Program-made: the position numbers and the translations under genes
The notes under the pieces: model-generated
Seen by the model: only the letters and a program-made list of their open reading frames with translations
The model's database searches: none
What the model was told of the DNA's origin: nothing
In this document: piece by piece, positions 1 to 11,654 of the stretch
How the letters are laid out: every line of letters begins with the position of its first letter
How positions within the stretch are numbered: the first letter of the stretch is position 1
Assembly (NCBI GenBank): GCA_003167555.1
Contig: PMSN01000009.1
Coordinates: 1-64,000, forward strand
DNA: 64,000 nt
From: Spartobacteria bacterium
Lineage (GTDB): Bacteria; Verrucomicrobiota; Verrucomicrobiia; Chthoniobacterales; UBA10450
Direction: 5' to 3'

Positions 1-832
1 CGCAGATCCAGCAAAGGTTTCCACAATTCTTCTTCGCTTCGTCCTGGGAAGGGTAGCATTTGGCGCCTCTCTCCCGAGCCTCGGCCTCGCTGACCTGCAC
101 AACTTTTCCGTCAACACAGATCCAGCAAAGTTTCCCACAATTCTTCTTCGCTTCTTCTGGCGAACCATAACATTGACCACCTTTGGCCGTGATTTCCGCC
201 GCCGGGAGCAGGACGACGTGTCCGTTGATGCAGCCCCAGCAATAATTAGGAGGCGGAGGCGGCGGTGGGCAGCCACAGTCCGGCGGACAGGGAAGCGGCC
301 ACCACCAACAATGCGGGGGTTGAGGCGGACAGGGCGGGTGCTTCCCGGGGCCGCCATGCCACTTGTAACAATGACAATCCGTTTCCCACCACCAGCCGCC
401 ACCTTCTTGGATCCAAACCCATTTACAGCAAACGTACGACCATTGCCCGCCATCGACAGGCGTCGGCGTCATCAAAAAGGCGTGTTTGTCTCCGTTATTC
501 GTAATGCCCTCGCCAATAATGAGGCATGAATCACTGATCGTTTTCGCCACCGTCAGGACCTTGAACTCGGTGACGGAAAGATCGCACAGCGTGTTGAGAT
601 CGTACATCTGGCCGCCCACGTAAAGGAACGCATGCTCGCTGCCGTCACTCATGGTCGAGGATCCGACGATCATTCCGGCCGCGTTTTGCCCCGGACCGGC
701 GACGCCGTTGGCTGAGCTCATATTGCCACCGAGGGTTCCCAAATCGGTGACGCTGTAGCTTAATTGCGCCTCCGCGCAGGTGAAGCCGACAAAGAAAGCG
801 AGAGCAGTCGCGAAAGAGATTTTAGTTTTCAT
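1..832 (-). CDS. Secreted HAF-repeat protein with Cys/Trp-rich tandem repeats; 3' end lies beyond the window
   Basis: An open frame of 277 codons starts at ATG 832-830 and is still open at position 1, so the gene is partial. Residues 1-22 form a signal peptide (MKTKIS, a hydrophobic core, then AEA before Q23). Residues 25-122 carry two HAF-type repeats: VTDLGTLGG, then HAFLYVGGQMYDLNTL near 68-82 and HAFLMTP near 117-123. Residues 129-195 are rich in Trp, Cys, His and Pro with a run of seven prolines. From residue 198 a 38-residue unit repeats (Cys 198, 201, 221, 232, then 236, 239, 259, 270, with a third copy starting at 274). Export is inferred from the signal peptide. The function of the Cys repeats is unknown; disulphide cross-linking or metal binding are possibilities. 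Confidence 0.8.
   Translation of the reverse strand, partial: MKTKISFATALAFFVGFTCAEAQLSYSVTDLGTLGGNMSSANGVAGPGQNAAGMIVGSSTMSDGSEHAFLYVGGQMYDLNTLCDLSVTEFKVLTVAKTISDSCLIIGEGITNNGDKHAFLMTPTPVDGGQWSYVCCKWVWIQEGGGWWWETDCHCYKWHGGPGKHPPCPPQPPHCWWWPLPCPPDCGCPPPPPPPNYCWGCINGHVVLLPAAEITAKGGQCYGSPEEAKKNCGKLCWICVDGKVVQVSEAEARERGAKCYPSQDEAKKNCGNLCWIC
14..241 (-). repeat. Two tandem 114-bp coding repeats (38-residue Cys4 unit), third copy starting at the window edge
   Basis: The DNA beginning CAGATCCAGCAAAG at position 3 recurs at position 117, an offset of exactly 114 bp. In protein each unit reads C-x2-C-x19-C-x10-C. The first CxxC is flanked by Trp and followed by a D/N-G-x-VV stretch, and EEAKKNCG or DEAKKNCG precedes the next copy. 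This is a coding repeat and not a CRISPR array: the period is 38 codons and the frame stays open. Confidence 0.85.
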
Positions 833-4075: not shown

Positions 4076-5518
4076 CTAGACCGCTGCCCGAATCATTTCC
4101 CAGACACGGGCGACGTGTTCTTCGGTCGTTAGGATGTTGCCCAAGCCAAGACGCATCACTACGCGACCGCGTAGCTTCGTCTGAGTCAGATAGGCGTCGC
4201 CCGAGGCGTTGATCCTGGCCACAGCTTCGCTGTTTTGCCGGTCGGCGACTTGGTCATCGCTGTTCTTGAGACGGAAACAAACCACTCCCATCATCACCGG
4301 TGCCGAAAGCTCAAAGCGCGGGTCCTCTTCAATCCAGCGCGCGAAAAGTTGGGCCAGCCTCAGGTGTTCGCGAATGCGCGCCGCCATTCCTTCGCGGCCG
4401 AACGCGCGCCAAACCACCCAGGCCTTGAGTGCGCGAAAGCGGCGGCCGAGTTGCACGCCGTAATCCATGTAGTTTATCTCCGCGCCGGCGGGATCGCGTA
4501 GGTGCAGGTGCTCGGGAGCGAGCGTGAAGAGGCGCCGCAACCGCTCGATGTCGCGCACATAGAGCGCGCTGAAATCGAACGGCACAAAGAGCATCTTGTG
4601 CGGATTGATGACGAGCGAATCGGCTTCCGCCCAAGCGTCAGTCACCCATTTTTCTTCGGGCAAAAGCGCCAGGCCGCCGCCGTAGGCCGCGTCGATGTGC
4701 AGCCACATCCGGTGGTCGCGGCAAATTTTCGCGATCTCGCGAACAGGATCAACACTGGCGGTGGAGGTCGTGCCGACTGTCGCGACGACAGCGAGCGGCC
4801 GGAGGCCCGCATTCACATCGGCCATCACCGCGTCGCGCAAAGCGGCAAGGTCCATCCGAAATTGGGCATCGCTCGGAATGCGCCGCACGTTCTCTTCTCC
4901 GATCCCGATCGCGATCGCCCCTTTCTCCACGGAGCTATGGGCCTGGTCAGAAGCATAAATGCGGAAGACAGGCAGTTCGGCGCGCCCGCTTAGTCCGAGC
5001 TTCCGGGTATTTGGCGCGGCTTGTTCCCGGGCGGTGGCCAGCGCATGCATCGTCGAGATCGAGGCGGTATCGTAGACGACGCCTTGGAAGTCAGCCGGCA
5101 AAGTGAGCCATTGCCTGAGCCAGTCGAGCACGAGTGTCTCCAGCTCAGTCGCAGCAGGGGAAGTGCGCCAGGTCATGGCGTTGACATTCAGCGCCGCGGT
5201 AATCATCTCGGCGAGAATCCCAGGGTTGGTCGTCGTGCATCCGAAGTAACTCATAAACTGCGGGTGCGCCCAATGAGCGACGCCAGGGACAATGACGCGT
5301 TCGATGTCACTAAAGATCGCGTCAAGTGAGGCACCGCCTTCTGGTGGAGTTCCATCCAACTGCGCGAGAACAGCGCCTGGTTTGTCGTTCGGTGCAATCG
5401 GACGTTCTGCTATGTGCGCGCGATAGTCTGCAATCCAGTCCGCCATCGCATGCAAGCGCTCACGGAACTCCTCGTTAGGCAAGTCCCCGAGCCGGCCGAT
5501 CTGTGACGGGCGATTCAT
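4076..5518 (-). CDS. PLP-dependent group II (aromatic-amino-acid type) decarboxylase
   Basis: The 480-residue protein matches the aromatic-L-amino-acid/glutamate decarboxylase family, which removes the alpha-carboxyl group of amino acids using pyridoxal phosphate. It shows AHPQFMSYFG (substrate and PLP region, about residues 83-92), HSSVEKGAIAIG, LHIDAAYGGG (Asp for the PLP ring nitrogen) and INPHKML with the PLP-binding Lys at about residue 308. Length is typical of bacterial members. The substrate (Tyr, Trp, DOPA, Phe, or another) cannot be told from sequence alone. It starts at ATG 5518, 21 nt after the Omp85 gene stop at 5540, so it may be the last gene of the tamB-Omp85 transcription unit. 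Confidence 0.9.
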   Translation of the reverse strand: MNRPSQIGRLGDLPNEEFRERLHAMADWIADYRAHIAERPIAPNDKPGAVLAQLDGTPPEGGASLDAIFSDIERVIVPGVAHWAHPQFMSYFGCTTTNPGILAEMITAALNVNAMTWRTSPAATELETLVLDWLRQWLTLPADFQGVVYDTASISTMHALATAREQAAPNTRKLGLSGRAELPVFRIYASDQAHSSVEKGAIAIGIGEENVRRIPSDAQFRMDLAALRDAVMADVNAGLRPLAVVATVGTTSTASVDPVREIAKICRDHRMWLHIDAAYGGGLALLPEEKWVTDAWAEADSLVINPHKMLFVPFDFSALYVRDIERLRRLFTLAPEHLHLRDPAGAEINYMDYGVQLGRRFRALKAWVVWRAFGREGMAARIREHLRLAQLFARWIEEDPRFELSAPVMMGVVCFRLKNSDDQVADRQNSEAVARINASGDAYLTQTKLRGRVVMRLGLGNILTTEEHVARVWEMIRAAV

Positions 5519-5539: not shown

Positions 5540-7771
5540 TTAGAAAGCGAAGCCAAAGCTGAAATGGAAAGCGCCGAAAGCTTCGCCCGCGCGCCGATCG
5601 GGATTGTAGCCGTAATCGACGCGGATCGGACCGATCGGGAGTTTGTAGCGCAGTCCCAGGCCCACCGCGTAGCGCATGTCGTCAAAACCGGCGGTAACGT
5701 TGGAAAACGGATCGGTCGCGCTGGGAAGAAGATTGCCGGCATCGAAGAAGACGGCGCCCTGCAGCTCGCCATAAAGCGGGAAAGTATATTCGGCATTGAA
5801 GACGGAAAAGAACTCGCCGCCGATTGAGTTGCCTCGATTGTGCGGGCCGAGATCGCGCTCGGCAAAGCTGCGCACGGTGGTGCTGCCGCCATTGAAAAAT
5901 CTTTCGTCGATCGGAATGGCCGCCGTCGTCTCGTCGCCGTTCAAGCTGTGGATGATGCCGGCTCGCGCGCCGAGCGCCAGCAATGTGCGTCGGTCGGCCT
6001 TGCCCAGTTGGGGCGCGGAGCCAAACGGAATAAAATAAGTGAACCGCGCCGTGCTCCGGATGAAATCGATATTGCTGCCGAGCGCGGTCGTGGCGAGATC
6101 GACGGTGCTATCGAAAACGAAACCGCGGCTCGGGTTCACCTTGCTATCGCGGAGGTCGAGCGTTTGGGTGAGGCCGATTGAGGTCACGAAGTAGGATGTG
6201 CGTCCCAGAAACTGCGGATCGATATCGGCGCTGGTGACATCGACATGTCGCGCGCTCAAAACAAGGCCGACCTCGTAGTACTTCGTGATCTTGCGGGTGA
6301 GATCGAGACGAATGCCCGTCTCGAACTTCGTGTAACCGTCGAAATCGAAAGTCAGCGCGGAGAGCTTCGCTTTGAAACCGAAGTCGGTGTCGAAGAAATA
6401 CGGATCCTCCCAGAGGATTTCCCACTTGTAACCGCGCTCCGACCATTCCGCCAGAGTCGAGAGTGGCCGGCCGTAGCCGAAGAGATCGCGATCGCGATAG
6501 CTCGCGCCGACGATCGCGCCGGTGTAGGAGCCGTAACCGAGCGAGAACCCAAACTCCTTGCTCTTTGCTTCCTCCGCCGAGATGTCGAGCCGCAACGCGT
6601 TGCCGCCGACCGGAGTGGGCTTGATTTGCAGCACGTTGAACAAGCCGGTCTTCATCAACTCACGAAATCTTTCGTCCACCAATTCCGGGCTGTAGGTCTT
6701 GCCGGTGAACTTACTGAACCGGCGCTCGAGATAACTGGGCTGCAACCGCTCGAGGCCCTTTACCGTTACACCATCGAAATGGTAAAGCGGCCCCGGAGTT
6801 ATCGAGACTACGACCGGCACGTGGCCATTGATCGCGGCGGGCGGATTACCGGTAGCATCTACTTTCACTTCGTAGTAGCCGAGCGCGCGGTAATAGGTCT
6901 GGAGCCGGCGCGGAATATCCGAGACGCGCCCATCGGTATAAGGCTGCTCCACGAGATCGACCATCTGGCCTTGCAACGTCTGGGAGTCATAAATCGTCTG
7001 CCCGGTAAAGGCGATATTGCCGAAGAAATACTGACGCCCTTCCGTGATCGGAATGGTCGCGTCTATGTGCGAACCATCCTCGGCGTAGTGATAAATGGGC
7101 GGCTCGACCTTCGCGTCGAGGAAACCTAACGAGACGTAAAGGCGATGGACGAGATCGGCGCCTTCCTCCACGTCCGCCGAGACGAAGGGAAGTTTCTTCT
7201 GGAGTTTTGAATAACGTTCGCGGGTCGGACCGACGGCGTATTCGAACAACACATCCGCCGGCTGGTGCTGGTTGCCGACGAAATTCACGAACCCCAGCGT
7301 GACGAGGGGGCCTTCGTTGACGTCGAGCCGCAGATGGTCGCCGGACTCGATGGTGTAGCGCACGCTGACTTTCGCGTAGCCGTGTTTCCGGTAAAACAGC
7401 TCGAGAAAGAAGGCCGCGTCATCGCCGCGCGCCGCGGTGAGACCATAATCGTCGATCGTCGTGATCTGCTCCTTCAACTCCGAGCGCAGCTCCTTCTCGC
7501 TGAAAACCGTCTGCCCACCGAACTCGATGACGCTGGTGTGTTGCGCCTTCTTCTCCTGCTCCTTTGCGACCGCGCGCTGGGCCTTGTCCTTTTGTTCCGG
7601 ACGCGGAACCTGCACCGCGGTTTGGGCGAGAGCGTTTGCGAAACCGAAGGACACAATGAAAGCCAGGCATGAGAGCTGTAGCCGCGTCGCTCTGTCGACG
7701 CGAAGGCGTAAGGGCGGCGACTGAGCGGCGCCGCTACAGTGCTTGGGCTTGGGCAAGGTCACGCGGTTCAT
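5540..7771 (-). CDS. Omp85 family outer-membrane protein (BamA/TamA-like)
   Basis: The 743-residue protein has an N-terminal export signal (hydrophobic LSCLAFIVSFGFANALAQ, about residues 33-50), several POTRA-like repeats (about 75-400, e.g. GPLVTLGFVNFVGN and GPLYHFDGVTVKGLERL) and a C-terminal 16-strand barrel region ending VDYGYNPDRRAGEAFGAFHFSFGFAF, with a terminal Phe as in BamA/TamA barrels. It starts 1 nt after the stop of the TamB-like gene, so the pair is an operon and by analogy to TamA-TamB exports or inserts envelope components. Residues of about 12-32, ahead of the hydrophobic core, are encoded by a palindromic repeat (7676-7739), giving an unusually long n-region. No better start exists downstream. 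Confidence 0.92.
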   Translation of the reverse strand: MNRVTLPKPKHCSGAAQSPPLRLRVDRATRLQLSCLAFIVSFGFANALAQTAVQVPRPEQKDKAQRAVAKEQEKKAQHTSVIEFGGQTVFSEKELRSELKEQITTIDDYGLTAARGDDAAFFLELFYRKHGYAKVSVRYTIESGDHLRLDVNEGPLVTLGFVNFVGNQHQPADVLFEYAVGPTRERYSKLQKKLPFVSADVEEGADLVHRLYVSLGFLDAKVEPPIYHYAEDGSHIDATIPITEGRQYFFGNIAFTGQTIYDSQTLQGQMVDLVEQPYTDGRVSDIPRRLQTYYRALGYYEVKVDATGNPPAAINGHVPVVVSITPGPLYHFDGVTVKGLERLQPSYLERRFSKFTGKTYSPELVDERFRELMKTGLFNVLQIKPTPVGGNALRLDISAEEAKSKEFGFSLGYGSYTGAIVGASYRDRDLFGYGRPLSTLAEWSERGYKWEILWEDPYFFDTDFGFKAKLSALTFDFDGYTKFETGIRLDLTRKITKYYEVGLVLSARHVDVTSADIDPQFLGRTSYFVTSIGLTQTLDLRDSKVNPSRGFVFDSTVDLATTALGSNIDFIRSTARFTYFIPFGSAPQLGKADRRTLLALGARAGIIHSLNGDETTAAIPIDERFFNGGSTTVRSFAERDLGPHNRGNSIGGEFFSVFNAEYTFPLYGELQGAVFFDAGNLLPSATDPFSNVTAGFDDMRYAVGLGLRYKLPIGPIRVDYGYNPDRRAGEAFGAFHFSFGFAF
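7676..7739. repeat. Palindromic repeat inside the 5' end of the Omp85 gene
   Basis: The outer arms begin CTGTAGCCGCG on the left and end CGCCGCTACAG on the right (13 of 15 outer bases pair). The left arm contains its own hairpin CGCGTCG-CTCTGT-CGACGCG. The architecture is the same as the intergenic elements at 24797 and 51926, but here the element is translated. Confidence 0.7.
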
Positions 7772-7772
7772 C

Positions 7773-10700
7773 TTATTTGAATCGGATCAGGTACTTCACA
7801 ATGCCGCGAAAATCTCCGCCCACTTCCAAATCTCCGATCAGGAGAAACTGCTCGTTGAGTTTGAACCGGGCGGTCGCGGTTTGCTGGCCGGTGCGCGGAT
7901 CGACATTGCCGACATCGACCTGCAACTTATCAAAGACGGAGTTGCTCTTGGTCGCATCTCCCTTCTTGAATACTTTTCGGTAAAGCTGCTGCACCAGCAG
8001 CATCGCGGCCCGCCCCGCGAGCACATTGTTGTTCCCCACCAGTTCTTCGCGGGTCACCCCGGTGGCCAGGAGCGAGATGATTTCCTCCTGTGGCAGTGGC
8101 GGCTCGCTCGAGAAAACGGCTTCGGGCGAAAGCGAAGTGCCATAGACATAAACGTGGACCGTGTAATCGCGGATGAGTGAAGTGCCTTGCAAATCGATCT
8201 TCGGATTAAATGAGTCGCTCGGATCGAAATAGAGAAAACCCTGCGCGATCTCAAGTCTGCTGAAGGGCAAAGTCGCCTCCACGTTTTCCAACCTAACGAT
8301 ACCTTGCAACGTCGGCCGGAGACCGGTCCCGCTCAGATGCAGGTCGGTGATCGCACCGCCATTGGCCAGGTTCCCGCGGATCAGAAAAGGATCCTTGGTC
8401 TTGATCGCGACGTCGAAGTTCCAATCGCGGATTGGCGGCTGCGGGATGGAAAAATCCGGCCGGTCCGTGGGCGGCTGCGGCGCCGGACGTCCCGGAAGGC
8501 CGATCGGAATCAGATCGATGTTCTTCAGCAAAGAACTGTTCGTCAGTGCGACATTGCCGCTGACTGTCGCGGCTTTAAGTGGTCCTATCACTTTGATGTC
8601 GGCGTCGGCGCGCGCGGTGAGCGAATCGTTCCGCGCCACGAGAACGCTCTGCGCCTTGAGTTGGAAATCGAGATTCGGTTCGATCAATTTTGGAAACGTT
8701 ACCTGGCCCGAGATCGTGAACGGCCCGCCGGCAAGGTCGCCGCTGAAGCGCTCGAAGTGGAGAACGTCGCCATCGAAAGTCATCCGTGAATGGAAGCCGC
8801 TGAGCGACGGCAGGGTCGCGTTCGTGAACCGCGCCATGTTGATCGTGATGTCACCCGCGCCGCTCAGGACCGGTTTCGCGATCGTGCCGTTGATGTTCAC
8901 GTCCAGCGCGACATCGCCGTCGAGCTGCGTTACGCCCGGGAGAAATTGCCGCAGGAAATTCACGGAACTGCGCGGGAGCTGCACCTTCGCGGTTAGCGGC
9001 GTGTTCTCGTCGAATTTCTTTTCAGCGATGATCTTCGGCACATCGAACGGAATGTTGGCGGTCATCTGCAAGGCCTGGATTCTGCTTTGCTGCAACTTCC
9101 CGTTGAACATGAGCTGGTTGTTTTGCAGCTCCGCGACGAGATCGAAAGTGGCGGGCTCGAGCTTCGGATACTCGGCGCTGTGAAGATCGCGCATTTGCAC
9201 ATCGAGCCGCGCGCCCACCTGCGCGAGCGTCCCCTGCGCATCCAGCTTCACGTTGATCAGCCCGGTCGCGAGCGGCTTCGCGCCGATGTCCTGGAAAAGT
9301 TTTTGCAGGTCGAGGTTCTCCGATTGAAAGGTTACGAGCACTTTCCCATCCGAGGGAAAAAGCGGCTCGTTCGTTCCGAGATTCTTCCAGACAAACGGCA
9401 GCGAAACATAACCGGCCGCGTATTTCGCCTTCCCCTGGTCGACCTGGATCTTGCTGATCTCGAGCGTGGAACCTTTCGCCGTAAGGATGGCCTGGAAATC
9501 CATCTTGTCGCTGCCGAGGAAGATGGTCGGAACGTCGAGACCTTCGGGCGAATAGTTCGCGTCGATGTTCGCCTGGAGCGCTTGCAAGTTCGCGTAGCGT
9601 CCTTTTTCCAGCGCGAGCTTGAGCTTGCCGGTGTTCTTGAATTCGGCCAGCTCGCCACTCCCCTCCCAATTGATCATGAGCGAGCCGGCGATTTCATTGT
9701 TGTTACCGGCCGCGGCGAGGATCGGCTTCAGCCGCGCGAGATCGGCGATGTTCACGTAGACTTTACCGCTGTAGCGATACGGCTTGTCGAGCGAGAGAAT
9801 GCCGCTGCCGCCCATGAAGTCGCGCTCGTTTAGGTTCGCGGTGAAATCGTTGAGGTAAACGACATTGTTCACGATGGAGGCCTGAGTGCTCAGTTGCGGG
9901 ATCGTCAGGCTGCGAACCTTCAAATTCGAGCCGTAGATGGAAAGCTGACCGTTCGCTTTCCCGTCGCGCACCGTCACTTCTCCCGACATCTGCAACGGCC
10001 CGGTGATGCGGTTCAGGGAATCGATGGGCCAATAATCCGCCAACTCCACTGCGCCCAACGCGATGGAAAAGTTGGCCGGCTGCGCCAGAATGTGCGCGAC
10101 ATCGTCGGGCAAAAGATACTGGCCCGCGAGCGTGACGCTGTTTTGTTTTCGCAGCGCCACCACGCGCTCGATTTTCACCGACGCGCCTTCGCTCGTGAGA
10201 TCGGCCTGGACGGAATCGAAAAGATTTTCGCCGGAGCGAACGTCCGTCATGTCGAGATGGATCTGGGAATGCAGATCGGCATAATAAATTCTCGCCGCGC
10301 CGGCCGGCGGCATTTCCTTCGATGCTTTCAACGTCCCGGTCACTTTCGCCGCGCTGCCGTTTGCGAACGCGATCGGCCCGCCGGAAAAGCTCAGGTCGGC
10401 GCGAAGGACCGCGTCCCTGATCTCAGCGCGTCCGGTCACCGTCGCGGCGCCAGTGAGCGGCTGCGGAAATTTTGCCGTGATCGATTGCAGGTCCGGAAGT
10501 GATCCAGTGAAGTCAACGGTCGCCGGGCTGCGTCCGAATTCATTGATGTGCGCCGGCAGTTCGGCGTTTCCCGTGAGGCTCAATTTGTTGAGGCCGGTTG
10601 TCGCTTCTCCCGAATCGAGAGTCGCGACGCCATCGTGCGCTTTGAAGTGAAGAATAGCGTGATCGAAGAAAAAGTTTTCCTGGCGCAGATTGTTGACCTG

Positions 10701-11654
10701 CGCGTCAAGAGTGCCGTCCCAAGTGCGCGGCGCATCGATGACTCCCTTGCCGGTAATCGAGAGGCGCTCGACATCACCGGCCAGAAATTCCGGAGGCCGC
10801 CCGAGATAGCCGCGCAGGGTATCGAGCGAAACCTTCTCCGCGACGACGCGCAATTTCACGTCCAGCGAACGCGCCGTCTCGCTCAGCGCGGCCGAACCCG
10901 CCACCGTCCCGCCGGCCAGCGACGCATCCAGCACCACTTCGAGCGATCTGGAAGCGATGTGCGACGCGTCGAAAGCAACGAGCCGGAATTGGTTTTCGTC
11001 ATCGAGAACCAGCCCGCTCAGGATCAGATTCTTGTTCGTGTAGGATGTGCGCGCCGCGATCTTCGTCCAGGCGTGCGCGTTCGGAATCTGCAAGGTCGCG
11101 ATCCGAAGCTCACCGGGATTTTTCGGATCGAGATCGACCTCGAAATGTTCGAGGACGAAATCCTGCGGCGCAAACCGGACCAGCAGATTCACGTCGGAAA
11201 GCCGCAGCCGCTCGGGGAAGACCGCGAACAACCTGATCCTCGCATCAGGCGGGGGAATCTTCGGTTTCAGCGAAGCTTTGGCGGGATCCAGGACGACGTG
11301 CGCGCCCCGCACTTCGGCGTTCTTCAAAAACTCCGCGGCCCCACGGCGCGCGAGGTCGATCAGGCTGTAGTCCGCCTGAATGTAATCGACGTCGATCGAT
11401 TCGACGATGGTCGGCCCGATTGGCGTCACGTGGAGATTTCGGACGGCGAGACCGGTGAAAATCGTGCCTTCAAAGGTGAAATCGATTTTCAGGTTGGCCT
11501 TCGCCGCGTAGTTGTTCGCCACCGCCCCGGCCAAGTGAAAAATGATCGGACGATGGAAGATCAGGACGATCGCGAGCAAGACAAGCAGAGCCCAACGCAG
11601 ACGGCGAGGCCATCGCCGGCGTTGTTGCATGAGGGATTTTCCGCCTTCATCCAC
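7773..11654 (-). CDS. tamB: TamB-like (DUF490/AsmA superfamily) translocation and assembly protein
   Basis: The 1293-residue protein has an N-terminal membrane anchor (about residues 18-36, WALLVLLAIVLIFHRPIIF). A very long beta-rich, repetitive middle follows, typical of the beta-groove lipid-bridge fold. The C-terminal TamB domain includes LEIAQGFLYFDPSDSFNPK, LPQEEIISLLATGV and a final FLLIGDLEVGGDFRG. The known family role is to span the periplasm and work with TamA in moving phospholipid or inserting outer-membrane proteins. The gene directly precedes the Omp85 gene with a 1-nt gap. A start at ATG 11630 (MQQRRRWPRR) is equally plausible and loses 8 residues. Confidence 0.92.
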   Translation of the reverse strand: MDEGGKSLMQQRRRWPRRLRWALLVLLAIVLIFHRPIIFHLAGAVANNYAAKANLKIDFTFEGTIFTGLAVRNLHVTPIGPTIVESIDVDYIQADYSLIDLARRGAAEFLKNAEVRGAHVVLDPAKASLKPKIPPPDARIRLFAVFPERLRLSDVNLLVRFAPQDFVLEHFEVDLDPKNPGELRIATLQIPNAHAWTKIAARTSYTNKNLILSGLVLDDENQFRLVAFDASHIASRSLEVVLDASLAGGTVAGSAALSETARSLDVKLRVVAEKVSLDTLRGYLGRPPEFLAGDVERLSITGKGVIDAPRTWDGTLDAQVNNLRQENFFFDHAILHFKAHDGVATLDSGEATTGLNKLSLTGNAELPAHINEFGRSPATVDFTGSLPDLQSITAKFPQPLTGAATVTGRAEIRDAVLRADLSFSGGPIAFANGSAAKVTGTLKASKEMPPAGAARIYYADLHSQIHLDMTDVRSGENLFDSVQADLTSEGASVKIERVVALRKQNSVTLAGQYLLPDDVAHILAQPANFSIALGAVELADYWPIDSLNRITGPLQMSGEVTVRDGKANGQLSIYGSNLKVRSLTIPQLSTQASIVNNVVYLNDFTANLNERDFMGGSGILSLDKPYRYSGKVYVNIADLARLKPILAAAGNNNEIAGSLMINWEGSGELAEFKNTGKLKLALEKGRYANLQALQANIDANYSPEGLDVPTIFLGSDKMDFQAILTAKGSTLEISKIQVDQGKAKYAAGYVSLPFVWKNLGTNEPLFPSDGKVLVTFQSENLDLQKLFQDIGAKPLATGLINVKLDAQGTLAQVGARLDVQMRDLHSAEYPKLEPATFDLVAELQNNQLMFNGKLQQSRIQALQMTANIPFDVPKIIAEKKFDENTPLTAKVQLPRSSVNFLRQFLPGVTQLDGDVALDVNINGTIAKPVLSGAGDITINMARFTNATLPSLSGFHSRMTFDGDVLHFERFSGDLAGGPFTISGQVTFPKLIEPNLDFQLKAQSVLVARNDSLTARADADIKVIGPLKAATVSGNVALTNSSLLKNIDLIPIGLPGRPAPQPPTDRPDFSIPQPPIRDWNFDVAIKTKDPFLIRGNLANGGAITDLHLSGTGLRPTLQGIVRLENVEATLPFSRLEIAQGFLYFDPSDSFNPKIDLQGTSLIRDYTVHVYVYGTSLSPEAVFSSEPPLPQEEIISLLATGVTREELVGNNNVLAGRAAMLLVQQLYRKVFKKGDATKSNSVFDKLQVDVGNVDPRTGQQTATARFKLNEQFLLIGDLEVGGDFRGIVKYLIRFK

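Follow-up and report, generated by a model that had tools for sequence, protein, structure and literature searches.

The window, that is, the whole stretch of 64,000 nucleotides that was analysed, covers the initial 64 kb of contig C24, which belongs to a 4.2-Mb genome assembled in 29 contigs. Its first gene is an open reading frame on the minus strand (2-832) without a stop before the window edge. Base 1 of the window is also base 1 of C24, so the frame is left open by a break in the assembly, and the gene itself extends further. The divergently oriented neighbour encodes an aldehyde dehydrogenase (PF00171, E 2e-180), as a preliminary description of this DNA had proposed. Further along, an Omp85/POTRA protein gene (5543-7771) adjoins a TamB protein gene (7776-11630), both within 5543-11630 on the minus strand, which likely form a TAM-type outer-membrane assembly pair. 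The following features were located in the first gene:

767..832, minus strand: signal peptide, aa 1-22, MKTKISFATALAFFVGFTCAEA, with an AxA-type cleavage site, read by eye from the translation
461..754, minus strand: short HAF-repeat region, aa 27-124 (TIGR02913, E 1.2e-16, two stretches)
269..451, minus strand: Trp/Cys/Pro-rich segment, aa 128-188, GGQWSYVCCKWVWIQEGGGWWWETDCHCYKWHG...PHCWWWPLPC, strongly conserved in homologues
242..268, minus strand: proline-rich spacer, aa 189-197, conserved in position and variable in length among homologues
137..241, minus strand: Cys unit 1, aa 198-232, 4-Cys form, CWGCINGHVVLLPAAEITAKGGQCYGSPEEAKKNC (unit profile, E 1.4e-18)
23..127, minus strand: Cys unit 2, aa 236-270, 4-Cys form, CWICVDGKVVQVSEAEARERGAKCYPSQDEAKKNC (unit profile, E 1.6e-19)
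2..13, minus strand: start of Cys unit 3 (CWIC), truncated by the contig end

The two complete Cys units are 35 residues long each and follow one another at a step of 38 residues. Their cysteines (C198, C201, C221 and C232, followed by C236) match the spacing C-x2-C-x19-C-x10-C exactly. At the DNA level, 87 of 131 bases were identical at a lag of 114 bp (66%, z about 10.8 against shuffled sequence), with the runner-up lag reaching only 36%, which agrees with the 114-bp period noted before; neither Tandem Repeats Finder nor a second DNA repeat search detected this repeat. The preliminary description had taken a 38-residue unit with four cysteines as the building block of the protein. Spacing and step stood as described, although the four-Cys unit turned out to be a reduced form that alternates with a six-Cys form in the wider family.

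As anticipated from the sequence, the protein starts with a signal peptide, whose region aligned across all homologues, and two HAF repeats, followed by the Trp/Cys/Pro-rich linker. The HAF head scored 60.4 bits against a curated cut-off of 22.65 for TIGR02913 (best stretch 587-685), a cut-off that four relatives also passed. It thus carries the same signature as the HAF repeat proteins, a family in which many repeats make up most of the protein. In contrast, only about two repeats, covering about 100 residues, are kept here, and the remainder consists of the added Trp/Cys segment and Cys array, whereas the other HAF proteins of this group are richer in repeats, and their frames are commonly about 300-400 residues long. 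The window gene was the sole HAF locus detected in the source genome; other HAF genes were common in the family. Only array-bearing genomes matched the full head (HAF plus Trp/Cys segment) strongly, and the Trp/Cys segment itself was seen solely in array-carrying genes, where it was under tighter constraint than any other part (dN/dS 0.06-0.17 in the comparisons that could be measured). Contigs from Desulfuromonadales, Phycisphaerae and Symplocastrum that gave matches encode HAF proteins lacking the array and were set aside.

Among 58 close genomes, 11 gave a match. Convincing matches came from nine genomes in five genera of one family in the order Chthoniobacterales: four of the same genus (the source genome G000, G001, G003 and G007) and five of other genera (G017, G019, G020, G031 and G032). 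Despite belonging to the same genus, G002, G004, G005 and G006 had no array. Copy numbers ranged from 3 to 14 modules, apart from G020, where one was found; a profile of the unit counted 14 in G007, 13 each in G001 and G031, 11 in G003, 6 in G017, at least 7 in G019, whose array includes undetermined bases, and at least 3 in G032, whose array runs into a contig end. In the G019 array gene, X bases fall within the last unit (L036:6667-6727) and the 3' end is uncertain. Such recurrence, up to 14 times in homologous genes, excludes a chance pair of units; the proposed extension of the array beyond the window also stood. Six of the array genes were matched again in metagenome-assembled genome records named as Spartobacteria, Chthoniobacterales or Verrucomicrobia bacterium. 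No convincing unit was found outside the family when the profile was run against three overlapping genome sets (order, 213 genomes; class, 384; phylum, 387), and no relative of the unit was found in the viral contigs, phages and plasmids searched. Partial unit matches in G250, G327 and G582 (E 0.002-0.009) and matches at 27% identity in G010 and G024 were taken as chance. The array protein, as recognised by this profile, is present in some members of one soil Verrucomicrobia family. Comparison of the gene neighbourhoods showed no conservation except between G019 (L036) and G001 (L038), in which the array gene lies between an enolase gene and a prfB-like gene, both named by eye. Upstream of the G003 array gene, L037:612-4716 holds a cluster of repeated genes that includes DUF4386 membrane protein and zinc-type alcohol dehydrogenase genes.

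Elsewhere in the source genome, the Cys unit occurs in one place, the extreme start of contig C20. There, a 5'-open frame on the plus strand (C20:1-463) encodes a partial unit, one complete 6-Cys unit and a Thr/Pro-rich tail, with a stop codon ending at 463. Assemblies often break in repeats, and C24 and C20 both break within the array. Because the genome has one HAF locus and each relative one array gene, the simplest reading is that both pieces belong to one gene, and C20:1-463 is plausibly the 3' end of the window gene, the part that the preliminary description had recommended retrieving. The source species would then have at least three complete and two partial units. Alternatively, the C20 fragment could come from another array gene altogether, with the true 3' end of the window gene absent from the assembly. 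The complete C20 unit does have six cysteines and clusters with units of G019, a different genus, apart from the last units of the same-genus genes, which are of the 4-Cys form. On the other hand, a single HAF locus and no more than two array ends were found in the genome, relatives carry a single array gene each, G001 combines both unit forms within one gene, and the C-terminus of G001 (PTPTPPIIR) resembles that of C20 (PTPTPVIIR). We consider a second gene rather unlikely; it would concern gene structure only and be compatible with any functional reading. Synteny comparison neither proved nor disproved the C24-C20 join. Two related proteins are encoded on the two array-bearing contigs, at window positions 4079-5518 (minus strand; a pyridoxal-dependent decarboxylase, PF00282) and at L043:8552-10030 (plus strand). 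Downstream of the C20 array fragment, L043:10068-14999 holds a repeated-gene cluster of DUF4386 membrane proteins and zinc-type alcohol dehydrogenases, similar to that upstream of the G003 array gene.

Alignment of 73 unit matches revealed the two forms in full. The 6-Cys form reads C1-W-C2-C3-x12-C4-x6-C5-Y-x9-C6, and C2 and C4 are missing from the 4-Cys form. Of the 63 units in which all six positions were aligned, 17 had six cysteines and 44 lacked exactly C2 and C4; in two further G001 units, with Tyr at C1, that position was left unaligned. Loss of C4 never occurred without loss of C2 (Fisher p 7e-15, with kinship among units ignored), a value that overstates the joint loss because independent events were too few for a significant sign test. 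In a DNA tree of 61 units, built with four of the Cys codons left out, C2 needed 4 changes and C4 needed 3; of three independent supported pairs differing in C2, C4 differed in the same way in two and in the opposite way in none. First units clustered together across G000, G001, G003 and G007, and as those of G003, G007 and G001, with which window unit 1 groups, all retain C2 and C4, window unit 1 must have undergone a separate joint loss. A second pair is suggested by two G001 units that lack both C1 and C5 (aa 205-239 and aa 440-474). The pairing rule is imperfect because of G001 aa 242-276, where C1 and C2 are absent and C4 and C5 present, and G031 aa 293-327, in which, on reading by eye, a residue is inserted to give CWWAC and there are apparently five cysteines. 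From the joint losses we infer that C2 would be bonded to C4 and C1 to C5, with C3-C6 assigned by elimination.

The units are under protein-level constraint (purifying selection). Mean pS and pN were 0.65 and 0.26 for unit pairs within genes and 0.73 and 0.30 for pairs between genes; orthologous segments gave dN/dS values of 0.06-0.47. Recent local duplication was evident in G031 and G003, two neighbouring G031 units being 99% identical in DNA.

VKOR-family enzymes make extracytoplasmic disulphides. The source genome encodes two VKOR-family proteins, and DsbB was not found in it; disulphide formation outside the cytoplasm is plausible given these two proteins and the signal peptide. This bears on the earlier suggestion of a small module stabilised either by disulphides or by metal, which gained support, the joint loss of Cys pairs and the secretion signal favouring disulphides. 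A metal-binding function would mean that the four shared cysteines of each unit bind zinc or copper and keep the metal sequestered extracellularly, and C-x2-C followed by C-x10-C could indeed form a four-thiolate site. Such a function appears quite improbable to us: the protein is probably secreted from a cell with disulphide-forming enzymes, its cysteines are lost in specific pairs, one of them being C1 with C5, both of which would be required in a four-Cys metal site, and the neighbouring genes have no obvious link to metals.

The structure of the array was predicted with AlphaFold from three 6-Cys units of G019, using an alignment with 45 other three-unit segments. The model had a pLDDT of 88.3, with zero residues below 70, and a pTM of 0.56, so that the predicted fold of each unit is confident and the relative orientation of the units is not; a model built for the window protein was of low quality, with a pLDDT of 53. 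Each predicted unit comprises a beta hairpin, a short helix, in most copies a short strand, and a second helix. Fold searches with the array against the PDB and viral structures returned nothing at E <0.001. The best Foldseek row in the PDB was wheat germ agglutinin (E 1.1, TM 0.19, not significant), VIA-align gave a best Z of 2.2, and the best match in BFVD was a Harvfovirus protein (E 0.022, TM 0.40). The first of these matches touches on the possibility that the units are small carbohydrate-binding modules, forming a tandem lectin that would bind soil or biofilm polysaccharide via conserved Trp and Tyr residues by the cysteines. Trp2 and Tyr25 of the unit are in fact nearly invariant, and the tandem Cys-rich layout resembles that of hevein-type lectins. 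We regard a lectin as unlikely, as the match to wheat germ agglutinin is insignificant and the aromatic residues may just pack the core.

With regard to known families, no Pfam or NCBIfam model scored above its curated cut-off for the window units. Among 46 three-unit segments, TUNAR (PF21954) reached 30.4 bits against a cut-off of 27 in one L045 segment, covering positions 2-22 of 48, which was judged a chance sum over repeats with partial profile coverage. Meg, Cyt-b5, CV_2116 and several PHROGs without an assigned function matched weakly or in part; these matches were likewise attributed to chance sums over copies, because few or no single stretches pass alone and the profiles are only partly covered. 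By position, the resemblance to the CV_2116 domain (NF046097) is local to the Y-x-S-x-E-E-A segment of the unit and that to Cyt-b5 (PF00173) to CWxCxxGxVxxxT; both matches are partial and summed over repeats, the member shown scores far below both cut-offs, and the haem-ligand HPGG of cytochrome b5 is absent from the units. A sequence search of the PDB gave short matches only, the best being a 13-residue CWxCxxG stretch to a cytochrome b5 domain. In all, the earlier view that no named family has this unit was supported: Pfam, NCBIfam, PHROGs and the PDB, the last searched by both sequence and fold, offered no credible match. Neither a confident hit to a known domain nor a stop codon at the window edge turned up, and in the literature searched neither the protein nor the unit was found described. 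Absence from these libraries is no proof of novelty. We think that the unit probably represents a previously undescribed small disulphide-rich domain family, expanded in one soil Verrucomicrobia family, in which 6-Cys and reduced 4-Cys forms coexist in one protein.

Profile library searches found no enzymatic domain in the unit or the head, and no recognised surface anchor was found in the array protein. Because of the lack of an enzyme domain and the variable copy number, we favour a secreted, non-enzymatic, disulphide-stapled repeat scaffold or adhesin, a reading to which, taken as a whole, we give a probability of roughly 0.55. Secretion and disulphides are fairly well supported; the disulphide pairing, the cell location and the scaffold or adhesin role are inferred. 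The gene would encode a multi-domain protein comprising, in order, a signal peptide, a short HAF-derived head, the Trp/Cys-rich segment, up to 14 modules and a Thr/Pro/Arg-rich tail. Each module of about 35 residues, with a beta-beta-alpha-(beta)-alpha fold, would be stapled outside the cytoplasm by two disulphides (C1-C5 and C3-C6) or by three (with C2-C4). The modules would most probably serve as a protease-resistant stalk, or as a binding array, in an adhesion or matrix protein located extracellularly or on the cell surface, and array length would change as units are duplicated or lost.

The best-known tandem arrays of small disulphide-rich modules come from animals and plants, and hevein-type lectins are secreted chains of small Cys-rich modules whose general architecture is common to the window protein. 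The same architecture is shared with the eukaryotic progranulin and SCREPs, also secreted chains of such modules according to two articles (PMC6262176, PMC4527844). By analogy with progranulin, the window protein could be a precursor cleaved into separate Cys-rich peptides: its small Cys modules lie head-to-tail, some linkers are basic, and the same articles describe secreted proteins of animals made of Cys-rich repeats. We hold cleavage to be highly improbable, given linkers of down to two residues between cysteines and a search by eye in which no common cleavage motif was seen. The favoured scaffold or adhesin entails no new kind of mechanism, and it would provide a first handle on the secretions of uncultured soil Verrucomicrobia. 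With two forms one Cys pair apart and many natural copies, the array is a compact system for sequence-proposed disulphide pairing, which in this bacterial protein is testable on short units, whether recombinant or synthetic. Similarity to the eukaryotic Cys-rich repeat proteins was found neither in sequence nor, at a significant level, in structure, and the window protein also differs from them in being bacterial and lineage-restricted; we rate it as a tandem secreted Cys-rich repeat protein, probably of a known kind, with a unit that appears new to the libraries searched.
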